Below are positions 8,389 to 34,354 of a stretch of 34,859 nucleotides of DNA, in pieces. Below the pieces are notes generated by a model that did not search any database, was not told the origin of the DNA, and saw only the letters and a program-made list of their open reading frames with translations. The stretch lies in assembly GCA_015486375.1 (NCBI GenBank), contig WFRR01000109.1, positions 1 through 34,859 on the forward strand. Direction: 5' to 3'. This stretch comes from Thiotrichaceae bacterium (GTDB lineage Bacteria > Pseudomonadota > Gammaproteobacteria > Thiotrichales > Thiotrichaceae). Made by a program: the position numbers and the translations under genes. How positions within the stretch are numbered: position 1 is the first letter of the stretch; each line of letters starts with the position of its first letter.

Positions 8389-8473
8389 TGGTGCGAAAGG
8401 AGAGACTCGAACTCTCACGCCTTGCGGCACTGGAACCTAAATCCAGCGTGTCTACCAATTTCACCACTCTCGC
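8389..8473 (-). tRNA. tRNA-Leu (anticodon UAG)
   Basis: An 85-nt cloverleaf with acceptor stem GCGAGAG/CTTTCGC, encoded CCA (8389-8391), D-arm, long class II variable arm and T-arm GAGTTCGAGTCTC. The anticodon loop TTTAGGT gives UAG, which reads CUN leucine codons. It is the last of four tRNA genes before tig. Confidence 0.95.
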
Positions 8474-8500
8474 ACGGTGGTCACTACTCTCATTTTAAGA

Positions 8501-8515
8501 GAGAGCGGGATTATA
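8501..8515 (-). promoter_or_regulatory. Internal promoter -10 and GC-rich discriminator before tRNA-Leu/tig
   Basis: On the minus strand a perfect -10 hexamer TATAAT (8515-8510) is followed at once by CCCGCTCTC (8509-8501). The same discriminator follows the -10 of the promoter upstream of tRNA-Pro. The -35 is weak (TTCAGC at 16 bp or CTTCAG at 17 bp). It lies 37 bp upstream of tRNA-Leu and could drive tRNA-Leu, tig and clpP separately from the upstream tRNAs. Confidence 0.5.
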
Positions 8516-8587
8516 CAGCTTTCATCAATAAGCTGAAGTATAATTATGAGAATTATACGGAATATTTTCTAAATTTAACTTTTTAAG

Positions 8588-8664
8588 TGGGGTGGATGAT
8601 GGGGCTTGAACCCACGACCGCCGGAATCACAATCCGGAGCTCTACCAGCTGAGCTACACCCACC
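8588..8664 (-). tRNA. tRNA-His (anticodon GUG)
   Basis: A 77-nt cloverleaf including the extra 5' G(-1) paired with the discriminator C, the hallmark of histidine tRNA. The acceptor stem is GTGGGTG/CATCCAC and CCA is encoded at 8588-8590. The anticodon loop TTGTGAT gives GUG. Confidence 0.96.
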
Positions 8665-8714
8665 ACTGGAAAATCAAATTTTACTGCTGCTGCCAACTAC
8701 TTTATTCTAAAAAA

Positions 8715-8791
8715 TGGCGCGTCCAGCAGGATTCGAACCTGCGACCTACGGCTTAGAAGGCCGTTGCTCTATCCAGCTGAGCTATAGACGC
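8715..8791 (-). tRNA. tRNA-Arg (anticodon UCU)
   Basis: A 77-nt cloverleaf with acceptor stem starting GCGTCTA and ending TGGACGC, encoded CCA (8715-8717), D-loop AGCTCAGCTGGATAGAGC and T-arm CAGGTTCGAATCCTG. The anticodon loop CTTCTAA gives UCU, reading AGA and AGG. Confidence 0.95.
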
Positions 8792-8818
8792 AACAACTGA
8801 TAATACAAGTTCAATTGT

Positions 8819-8895
8819 TGGTCGGGGTAGAGAGATTCGAACTCCCGACATCCTGCACCCAAAGCAGGCGCGCTACCAGACTGCGCTATACCCCG
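8819..8895 (-). tRNA. tRNA-Pro (anticodon UGG)
   Basis: A 77-nt cloverleaf with acceptor stem CGGGGTA/TACCCCG, encoded CCA (8819-8821) and T-arm GGAGTTCGAATCTC. The anticodon loop TTTGGGT gives UGG. It is the first gene of the tRNA-Pro/Arg/His/Leu-tig transcription unit. Confidence 0.96.
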
Positions 8896-27881: not shown

Positions 27882-28424
27882 TTACGGTAAGGGAAAAAAG
27901 CGTTTAATGGGTTTAGCGGTATGATGTAATGCTTGGGATACTTGCATTACAGAGTAGTTTAAATGCCCAAAACGCTGATTGATAATCTCAGTGTTATAAT
28001 GTACCCAGCGAGTATGTTTACCAATAGCTTTTGTATGTTGAGTCATCGATTGAATATTGGCTGTAATCCCCTGCGTACTACGTGCTATTGTGGAAATATT
28101 GGTGGAAATAACTTCCATATAGCCAATATCTTGACCAATCTCATCAACAGAGAAAGTGATTGTATCCATACTGTCCCGTAGATCAACCATTTGCTCTTGA
28201 ATAATTTTCATACTCTGAATAGAGTGACTGACACCCTGATTAAATGCAAAGAAATAGTAAAATATTATGCCAATAATCAGAGTTGCAAGGAAGGTAAACA
28301 CACTAATTACCGCATTCGTACCGATAATACTACGACGTGTAATTCCTTTTTGAAATTTGGCATCATCGGCAAGATCTTGCAAACATGATGAGATGTCTTC
28401 AAGCTGTTCCGTGGTAATTTTCAT
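27882..28424 (-). CDS. Single-pass membrane coiled-coil protein of unknown function (B)
   Basis: 180 residues, no family recognised. A cytoplasmic N-terminus (1-35), one transmembrane helix (about 38-60, rich in Phe and Tyr) and a long heptad-like region (65-165) with repeated Ile/Met/Thr spacing reminiscent of chemoreceptor or tether coiled coils. Positive charges before the helix (KGITRR) predict the coiled coil in the periplasm. It ends in a proline-rich tail, AKPIKRFFPLP, resembling the STKPFKLF tail of the neighbouring protein A. It lies 64 bp after A on the same strand and converges on nuoN. The paired arrangement and shared tail suggest a paralogous or interacting pair. No signalling domain is present. 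Confidence 0.75.
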   Translation of the reverse strand: MKITTEQLEDISSCLQDLADDAKFQKGITRRSIIGTNAVISVFTFLATLIIGIIFYYFFAFNQGVSHSIQSMKIIQEQMVDLRDSMDTITFSVDEIGQDIGYMEVISTNISTIARSTQGITANIQSMTQHTKAIGKHTRWVHYNTEIINQRFGHLNYSVMQVSQALHHTAKPIKRFFPLP

Positions 28425-28488
28425 GATAAAGAATCTATTGACGATTAATTAGGCTCGTCATAGTACACGAAATAGCTATTAAAATAGA

Positions 28489-29064
28489 TTAATCAAAAGG
28501 ATTGAGGTCATTAAAAAGTTTAAAAGGCTTAGTTGATGACTGCATATCCTGATTAATTTGGTTTAAATTTCCATCAAGTACACCCACTTTATTAGAGACT
28601 TGTTGAAGCGTTTGTTTTAAAGCCCCTATTTCATCTGAAACAACCCGCATTTCTGAATTCATCTGCGCACTACTATTATCAATCGTAGCAATATTACTAT
28701 CAATCGCATCAATCGCTGTACTCATTTCAGGCAGTTCTTTCATATGTGCTTCAACGCTTTGCATCACCAATGCAATGCTTTCCATACTAATTTGCACTGC
28801 ATAGGTTTCATCCGAAATACTATCGAGAGTAGACGTTAAGGCGTTAACTTGATGCGTTAATATATAAAGTAGATATAAAATAAATAGTAAGGCAATGACC
28901 AAAGAAGCCATTAATGAACGAATTAATATACGTAAGCGTACAGCCACTCGACGCTGTGATTGGCTATAAGTAGTAATGGTAAATTTTAAATTATTTAATG
29001 CTTGTCTAAATGTTGCATTATCAGCTGATATATTGCTAACGGGTGTTTGTATATTCATGTTCAT
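28489..29064 (-). CDS. Single-pass membrane coiled-coil protein of unknown function (A)
   Basis: 191 residues, no family recognised. A polar N-terminus is followed by an Arg-rich stretch (RRVAVRLR, 38-45), one transmembrane helix (about 48-70, Leu/Ile/Tyr) and a coiled-coil segment (72-175) of Ile/Met/Leu heptads. Near the end is STKPFKLFNDL, similar to the KPIKRFF tail of protein B. By charge, the coiled coil is periplasmic. It starts 19 bp after the zapD stop, so co-transcription with coaE-zapD is likely. It resembles the transmembrane and helical parts of methyl-accepting proteins but lacks HAMP and the signalling hairpin. A structural or division-associated role is conceivable only from its position. 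Confidence 0.75.
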   Translation of the reverse strand: MNMNIQTPVSNISADNATFRQALNNLKFTITTYSQSQRRVAVRLRILIRSLMASLVIALLFILYLLYILTHQVNALTSTLDSISDETYAVQISMESIALVMQSVEAHMKELPEMSTAIDAIDSNIATIDNSSAQMNSEMRVVSDEIGALKQTLQQVSNKVGVLDGNLNQINQDMQSSTKPFKLFNDLNPFD

Positions 29065-29083: not shown

Positions 29084-29845
29084 TCAAAAACTACATAATG
29101 TTAATTTGAAATTAATATCTTCCATGACCTGTTTACCTCGTTCATCTAATGTTTTAATTTCCACAAAACGAACTGAAAAACGCTGTTTTCCCGCGCTAAT
29201 TTCTGGGTAATAGCTCACATCATCGGCTACCTCTACTCGCAATAATTGCTTAGGTGGACGTTGTGATAAAGTTGCCTGAAAAAACCCATGCTTAGCGATA
29301 TGCTCTGTACCTGCAGAGCAGCCACGGATTAATAATAAAATGACTTGAATTGCATCATTTGCTAATCGATAAGCTTCAACCAGATGAATAAGATCTTTAC
29401 AACGGGCTGTGGCAGGTTTATTTAACCAATGTTGCAACATTGGAATATCAAAACCATTAATTCCTCCTGGCAAACTAGAGCGTTGCCGCAATACATTAAA
29501 AAAACCATGATTTTTTAAACGCTGTCCTAAAGGGCCTGAAAGGGTATAAAGTTTCGTATTGACGCGCGTTAATGTTTCTAGAATATCATCTGCTGATTCT
29601 TTATCAATTTCACCTTGCTTTTGGCGGTATTTAACTGCCAGTGCCTGACGATCGATTTCTTTTAATATTTCACTCTTTAAATCCAGTCGAGCTGCTAAAT
29701 TATACATCTCAAGAAGTAATAGTAGAGCGGCTTCACTACTTGCTCGTTTATCATCTAGAATATGGAAATTAAAACGGCGGACTAACTGTTCTAAGCGTAG
29801 TAAAACACGGGTTTTTTCATGTAAAGGTTGTTCGTATATTGTCAT
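29084..29845 (-). CDS. zapD: Cell division protein ZapD (FtsZ-binding)
   Basis: 253-residue cytoplasmic protein of the ZapD (YacF/DUF1342) family, which cross-links FtsZ filaments and stabilises the Z ring. The N-terminal family sequence YEQPLHEKTRVLLRLEQL is clear, as are SSLPGGINGFDIPMLQHWL near the middle and the C-terminal beta region ending EDINFKLTLCSF. Its length is like E. coli ZapD (247). It follows coaE by 30 bp, the same order as in E. coli, where yacG comes next; here yacG is absent and the two coiled-coil membrane proteins follow. Confidence 0.95.
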   Translation of the reverse strand: MTIYEQPLHEKTRVLLRLEQLVRRFNFHILDDKRASSEAALLLLLEMYNLAARLDLKSEILKEIDRQALAVKYRQKQGEIDKESADDILETLTRVNTKLYTLSGPLGQRLKNHGFFNVLRQRSSLPGGINGFDIPMLQHWLNKPATARCKDLIHLVEAYRLANDAIQVILLLIRGCSAGTEHIAKHGFFQATLSQRPPKQLLRVEVADDVSYYPEISAGKQRFSVRFVEIKTLDERGKQVMEDINFKLTLCSF

Positions 29846-29875: not shown

Positions 29876-30484
29876 TTATCGCGCACACAATTTTTCATGA
29901 TATTGCTTAACCTGTCTACGGAGCTTATCAAGACTCCCTGTATTATCCAATACATTATCTGCAATCGCTAAGCGTTCTTGACGACTTACTTGTAAATTCA
30001 TCATTGCTTGAATCTGACTAACACTGCGTTTATCACGTTGTTGTGCGCGTATCATTTGTTGTTTTGGCTCACAGTCAATCACAAGTATTTGGTCAAATAA
30101 TGCAGAATAGTTTTGTTCAATTAACAAAGGAACATCAACGATAAGATAATGATTTTTATCAGATTCATATTGAATTTTTTGTTGAATTATTCGCTTTATT
30201 TGGGGGTGTAGAATCGCTTCTAATTGATGTAACTTTTCTGTCTGTTTAAAAACAATATGACCTAACTGTTTTCGGTTAAGTTCTCCATTAGAATATAAAA
30301 TAGTTTGTCCAAATACCTTAACAATTTTTTTTAAAGTTGCTTGTTCTGTATGAACTAATTGTTTAGCAATATGATCAGCATCAATAATATGAATACCGAG
30401 TGCTTGAAATAGTTGACAGACTGTTGATTTACCACAAGCTAGCCCCCCTGTTAAACCCACTCGGATAGTCCTTTTAGTTGACAT
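29876..30484 (-). CDS. coaE: Dephospho-CoA kinase
   Basis: 202-residue cytoplasmic kinase for the last step of CoA synthesis, phosphorylating dephospho-CoA at the ribose 3'-OH. The P-loop GGLACGKST lies at 13-21, followed by the DADHIAKQLV segment, in which the first Asp is the expected catalytic base. The LID region contains QQRDKRS and the family sequence ADNVLDNTGS is near the end. It forms a pair with zapD. The usual gammaproteobacterial neighbour pilD is not here; truA is 71 bp upstream. Confidence 0.97.
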   Translation of the reverse strand: MSTKRTIRVGLTGGLACGKSTVCQLFQALGIHIIDADHIAKQLVHTEQATLKKIVKVFGQTILYSNGELNRKQLGHIVFKQTEKLHQLEAILHPQIKRIIQQKIQYESDKNHYLIVDVPLLIEQNYSALFDQILVIDCEPKQQMIRAQQRDKRSVSQIQAMMNLQVSRQERLAIADNVLDNTGSLDKLRRQVKQYHEKLCAR

Positions 30485-34262: not shown

Positions 34263-34354
34263 GGAGAGGTGGCAGAGCTCGGCCGAATGCACTTGATTTG
34301 AAATCAAGCGAAGGTTCACCCCTTCCGTGGGTTCGAATCCCACCCTCTCCGCCA
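34263..34354 (+). tRNA. tRNA-Ser (anticodon UGA)
   Basis: A 92-nt class II cloverleaf with acceptor stem GGAGAGG/CCTCTCC, a long variable arm (AAGG...CCTT), T-arm GTGGGTTCGAATCCCAC and encoded CCA (34352-34354). The anticodon loop TTTGAAA gives UGA, reading UCN serine codons. A terminator follows 33 bp downstream. Confidence 0.96.

Follow-up and report, generated by a model that had tools for sequence, protein, structure and literature searches.

What do two short genes of no recognised family, standing directly behind the division gene zapD in a Thiotrichaceae bacterium, code for, and is their position a guide to their function? The window analysed here is a stretch of 34,859 nucleotides from a 2.67-Mb assembly in 175 contigs (genome G000; below, G numbers are genomes and L numbers are loci). 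In it, two adjacent open reading frames, here called A and B, lie on the minus strand behind coaE-zapD with a gap of 19 bp between zapD and A, as the initial annotation had described. The gene order on their strand is coaX, a gene for a SPOR-domain protein, truA, coaE, zapD, A and B, and the nuo operon meets this strand tail to tail after B. The features are as follows.

29876 to 30484, minus strand: coaE, upstream of zapD.
29084 to 29845, minus strand: zapD, the neighbour upstream of A (PF07072, E 1.2e-56).
28489 to 29064, minus strand: gene A, 191 aa, a bitopic membrane coiled-coil protein, first gene of the pair.
28858 to 28914, minus strand: predicted transmembrane helix of A, residues about 51-69, after an Arg-rich cytoplasmic segment.
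28528 to 28857, minus strand: predicted coiled coil of A, residues about 70-179, heptad period 3.5, with a phase shift around residue 112.
28729 to 28731, minus strand: proline 112 of A, exactly 68 residues before the tail proline P180.
28492 to 28527, minus strand: tail of A, PFKLFNDLNPFD, P180-D191, conserved as P...FN...P[FW].
27882 to 28424, minus strand: gene B, 180 aa, a bitopic membrane coiled-coil protein, second in the pair and a paralogue of A.
28257 to 28313, minus strand: predicted transmembrane helix of B, residues about 38-56.
27912 to 28256, minus strand: predicted coiled coil of B, residues about 57-171.
27885 to 27911, minus strand: tail of B, PIKRFFPLP, P172-P180, with the stop codon directly after.

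A contig of the same-genus genome G001 carries the same genes (L001), and A and B are kept in relatives as intact reading frames of similar length; they are therefore real genes. Scans for promoters and terminators near the pair gave signals no better than those from shuffled sequence, and a plasmid search using a relative gave no match. In G001, B and a Cas6 gene are neighbours in convergent orientation (L059:3010-3699). Elsewhere in the window there is a tRNA cluster, Leu-His-Arg-Pro, at 8389-8895 (minus strand) and a separate tRNA-Ser at 34263-34354 (plus strand). The long trigger-factor reading frame, with its start at 8467, reaches into the tRNA-Leu gene; the actual start therefore lies further in.

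The two proteins share a plan. Each has one strong hydrophobic segment (about 51-69 in A, about 38-56 in B), with positive charges gathered ahead of it: K/R residues before and after number 5 vs 0 in A and 4 vs 0 in B for the window proteins, and the K+R means are 5.0/0.6 for the A group and 2.9/1.0 for the B group. R43 and R49, before the membrane helix of A, are kept in 23/23 A-type proteins. On the positive-inside rule, the N-terminus is predicted to be cytoplasmic and the coil periplasmic. The coils have a hydrophobic period of 3.5 over some 110 residues in each protein, and AlphaFold2 returns one continuous helix for A (residues 10-186, pLDDT 81.5) and for B (5-176, pLDDT 72.7); these models are of single chains built on shallow alignments (11-12 sequences), and long helices of this kind say little on oligomers. 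The architecture first read from the sequence, with a cytoplasmic N-terminus, one membrane helix and a heptad-like periplasmic region of about 100 residues in each protein, is therefore borne out as a prediction. The proteins also end alike. Invariant residues in the tail are P180, F184, N185, P189 and F190 among 12 A orthologues (P...FN...PF), and P172, F176, P178 and P180 among 11 B orthologues (P...F.P.P). A common tail had been proposed under the wording KPxK; a check of homologues found the tail real and conserved, but the wording is inapt, as the lysines vary among both A and B orthologues and it is the prolines and phenylalanines that are invariant. Across A-type proteins as a whole the FN is not universal.

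How are A and B related? Profile comparison of A with B gives a probability of 98.8% (E 5e-17) over 177 columns that include the tail and the membrane segment, so the earlier remark that the sequences differ outside the tail holds by eye only. Judged from sequence, A and B are diverged paralogues. In a tree of 80 sequences, all 33 A proteins, drawn from two bacterial classes, fall to the same side of one branch, whose support is weak (66), and the B label needs 2 changes against a mean of 25.8 for shuffled labels. Outside the close Thiotrichaceae group, the identity of A-type proteins to the window A is mostly 14-23% (35% in L141). No family had been recognised for either protein, and profile searches likewise gave no curated family above cut-off: scans of A and B against Pfam, NCBIfam and PADLOC produced generic coiled-coil matches only, all sub-threshold, and the profile search of the PDB returned a mix of unrelated, generic coiled coils. 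A and B belong to an undescribed, widespread and uncurated coiled-coil family, found mostly in sulfur-oxidising bacteria. A profile built from mixed members finds relatives in 62/274 Gammaproteobacteria, and family members are present in 77/369; in this wider family most tails end P(M/L)..(F/M)N...P(W/F). The window genome has three further paralogues of the family on other contigs (L074, L206, L207), one of them with an N-terminal extension of ~220 residues.

Several known proteins resemble A and B in build. DUF948 (PF06103) and DUF1664 (PF07889) are likewise short membrane-anchored coiled-coil proteins and are the best Pfam matches of several members, but the matches cover the coil only and all fall below the gathering score; membership was rejected for A at 23.8 vs 34.6 bits (DUF1664) and 15.5 vs 37.2 bits (DUF948). 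TolA and Lpp are helical rods that span the periplasm or set its distance. A and B differ from these: they are two equally long paralogues that each carry a membrane helix, they end in a short tail of prolines and aromatic residues where TolA and Lpp have a globular domain or a lipid, and there is no match between the sequence families. Chemoreceptor (MCP) stalks also carry a long heptad coil after a membrane helix, and one is the best PDB profile match (2ch7, E 5e-12), but their coil lies on the membrane side opposite to the one predicted for A and B, and A and B have no MCP signalling domain: nothing matched MCPsignal over cut-off, the only match being a member of the wider family, L071, at 16.9 vs 34.6 bits. 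The gammaproteobacterial division protein ZapG/YhcB (DUF1043) has a single N-terminal membrane helix followed by a coiled coil (PMC8163987). A and B share this plan, but their coil is predicted to be periplasmic and their link to a division gene is lineage-restricted; DUF1043 is absent from the B matches at E <= 10, from the best 25 matches of A and from the families matched by A-type members. SgpD of Allochromatium vinosum is a periplasmic, predicted coiled-coil protein of sulfur oxidisers whose gene adjoins a hydrophobic/amphiphilic exporter; it has a cleavable signal peptide, regularly spaced prolines and two short helices, and is restricted to Chromatiaceae (PMC10386293). Identity with SgpD was set aside on this published description, since A and B have neither the signal peptide nor the proline-repeat body but a long, charged cytoplasmic N-terminus ahead of their membrane helix, and a coil nearly free of prolines.

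The pairing itself is constant. B lies directly behind A in all 47 A-type loci where the contig continues, two further loci ending at a contig edge; the supposition that A and B always adjoin each other was checked, and no A without B was found on a continuing contig. Among the 63 Thiotrichaceae genomes searched, the close A type is present in 16 (3/3 in g1, 9/9 in g8, 4/6 in g3) and a dCache-linked A type in two g2 genomes, with B directly behind A wherever the contig continues (that of G009 ends just after A). Across 369 Gammaproteobacteria, all 13 strong A-type loci (E < 1e-45) have B behind. In a second class, probably Magnetococcia, for which 299 genomes of the phylum were searched, 17 of 18 A-type loci have B behind and one is at a contig edge. 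An apparently decayed copy of the pair is seen in a 4.5-Mb single-contig Thiotrichaceae genome (G427, L226:5512-6529), where a truncated A overlaps a lengthened B frame.

Given such divergence in sequence, what has been conserved? The clearest signal comes from length. In A, the spacing from R49 to P180 is 131 residues in 39/39 proteins (23/23 in the first set, 7/7 held-out, 9/9 in the second class), the column 131 before the tail proline being R in 38 and K in 1. In B, the distance from the T36 column to the tail column is 136 residues in 38/38 (22/22, 7/7 held-out and 9/9, respectively); the T36 column is T in 35 and A in 3 (dCache subtype), and the B proteins of the dCache subtype lack the tail proline. 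Counted over the columns of A, B also measures 131 residues, equal to A. The held-out test comprised 7 A and 7 B proteins found later, plus 9 of each from the second class, and all agree: from membrane to tail there are no indels despite identities of 14-60%. Unpaired members of the wider family with the same kind of tail (n=58) have spacings of 97-198. Heptad phase counted from the tail is also common to all four A/B groups, with hydrophobic positions at 3,6 mod 7 distally and 2,6 mod 7 proximally. The phase change falls close to a proline located 68 residues ahead of the tail, which is present in 17/21 A-type proteins of the first set and 9/9 of the second class, and in 7/21 and 9/9 B-type proteins respectively; among Thiotrichaceae B proteins of the first set it occurs in only 1/9, and the window pair has it in A (P112) but not in B. 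On this sequence evidence, the description of A and B as paired, length-locked rods is well supported.

We are inclined, if only slightly, to take the pair as a register-matched periplasmic rod, that is, a spacer or tether of set length in the envelope. A and B would be the two paralogous subunits of a single device in the envelope. One helix would anchor each of them in the inner membrane, with ~45 N-terminal residues in the cytoplasm, and each would continue as a single long periplasmic coiled-coil helix of ~110 residues, or ~16 nm at 0.149 nm per residue. Since coil length and heptad phase are the same, A and B most likely zip parallel and in register, as a heterodimer or higher heteromer. 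The paired proline-aromatic tails would then sit next to each other at a constant distance from the inner membrane and may dock there on a partner close to the cell wall or the outer membrane, and the device would serve as a set-length spacer or tether beside different envelope machines in different lineages. Alternatively, matched length and phase could have been inherited from the common ancestor and kept as each protein homo-oligomerises, and conserved length alone is compatible with two homo-oligomers; length and phase matched together in obligately paired paralogues make the in-register heteromer the simplest reading. The frequent absence of the mid-coil proline from B and the loss of the tail proline in B proteins of the dCache subtype weigh against it. 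Of the heteromeric or paralogous tether suggested initially, the paralogous pair stands, and a heteromeric tether would fit the residue-exact match in length.

Does genomic context identify the machine? The zapD gene precedes the pair in 7 loci only (gaps < 40 bp), in two Thiotrichaceae genera (G000-G002, G004, G022, G028, G034). In all nine g8 genomes an ExbB/ExbD-like operon, an ExbB-like gene and two genes for small membrane proteins, lies upstream (L069:2202-4481, with the same place in L062, L063, L065, L067 and L220-L223). A Maf gene precedes the pair at some other loci, and dCache-type genes and RND genes at others again (below). The constant link to zapD that the initial annotation had marked for testing was checked and does not hold, as A is found away from zapD; a division-site role is likewise unsupported as a general rule. 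Because the upstream neighbours differ by lineage, the zapD link is local, a role in division is one of several possible uses, and context points to no docking partner. The ExbB gene of g8 is MotA/ExbB-like, with a weak ZorA match in PADLOC, and its companions are two single-TM proteins of ~212 aa, ExbD-like in look; together these may form a small motor driven by ions, with two proteins as stator rods. A general functional bond of A-B with this gene was rejected on co-distribution, since g5 and g7 have the gene but no A-B, and G000 lacks it.

One neighbour found in both classes is an RND pump. In the second class an RND gene is in operon with the pair at 9/14 loci, most in the order TolC-HlyD-RND-A-B and often with 4-bp overlaps, and the gammaproteobacterial locus L175 has the same order. 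Family singletons are often in operon with an RND pump, DUF4412, a ParA-like ATPase, a TPR protein and a dynamin-family GTPase. A and B might accordingly be accessory subunits that brace or recruit a tripartite TolC-adaptor-RND exporter, the Thiotrichaceae pair having moved away from the pump genes. The distance from inner to outer membrane across tripartite RND pumps is about 17 nm, which a rod of ~16 nm would roughly equal, and the operon of the unpaired members (HlyD-RND-...-ParA-TPR-coil-dynamin) speaks for the same association. However, most gammaproteobacterial pairs have no adjoining pump. In the window genome the pair stands behind zapD and not in an RND operon, and the pump type linked to the pair elsewhere (about 60% identity) was not found there, the best RND being at 44%; nor did five g8 genomes, all with A, yield a full-length copy, one (G026) having a short 59% fragment. 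We regard an exporter-specific role as possible but unlikely.

The operon of the unpaired members recurs in Gammaproteobacteria as HlyD - RND - DUF4412 - (DUF302) - ParA-like - TPR - coiled-coil member - dynamin_N GTPase (L233:1002-11465, L234:3894-15078, and related loci L075, L076, L078, L153, L156, L161, L188 and L194). At L233 and L234 it is close to a gene located as soxB. In the window genome, HlyD, ParA and dynamin genes adjoin without the RND and coil genes (L205:2151-5414, contig C34). A literature search turned up no relevant paper on an operon of dynamin, ParA, RND and coil genes, or on a periplasmic ruler of such a type.

Could the family instead have an organising role in the periplasm of sulfur-oxidising bacteria, for instance around their periplasmic sulfur globules? 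Among Gammaproteobacteria, dsrA is present in 65/77 family-bearing and 54/292 other genomes (OR 24, p 5e-27; uncorrected for phylogeny), and soxB in 68/77 and 88/292 (likewise uncorrected). The window genome carries both, and some family members are near dsr or sox genes. Yet 12 family-bearing genomes are without dsrA, 54 dsrA genomes are without the family, the lack of phylogenetic correction weakens the association, and the A-B pair is rarer than the wider family. Such a role is conceivable, though we think it rather doubtful.

A division tether, in which A-B would join ZapD and the Z-ring to the outer envelope during constriction, draws on the zapD-A-B order of the seven Thiotrichaceae genomes and on cytoplasmic N-termini long enough to touch a partner, but the pairs of nine g8 and two g2 genomes, like those of the second class and of other gammaproteobacterial families, have no zapD beside them, which makes such a tether improbable. 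Relay of a signal from a periplasmic dCache sensor in the fashion of a chemoreceptor stalk is very improbable: a dCache-type gene overlaps A by 4 bp (L064, L224) and directly precedes it in L145, a decayed copy being present in L226, and an MCP stalk is the top PDB profile match, but the sensor is confined to one subtype, the L224 gene is assigned by size and place alone, the MCP match is that of a generic coiled coil and A-B has no output domain.

Returning to the set-length spacer, we tentatively raise a more specific form, which we hold to be less likely than not: a two-subunit molecular ruler, its length fixed since before the split between Gammaproteobacteria and the second class (probably Magnetococcia), which would set the distance from the inner membrane to the tail partner at machines that span the envelope, RND pumps for example. 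Control of periplasmic width is a live question, answered for few proteins so far, and residue-exact paralogous rods that are mostly < 25% identical between families make an unusually clean candidate ruler; as rod length can be altered heptad by heptad, the idea is directly testable. A widespread and uncurated coiled-coil family also receives a first description here, which ties it by co-occurrence to sulfur oxidation and, through the operons of its members, to ParA, dynamin-like GTPases and RND pumps.
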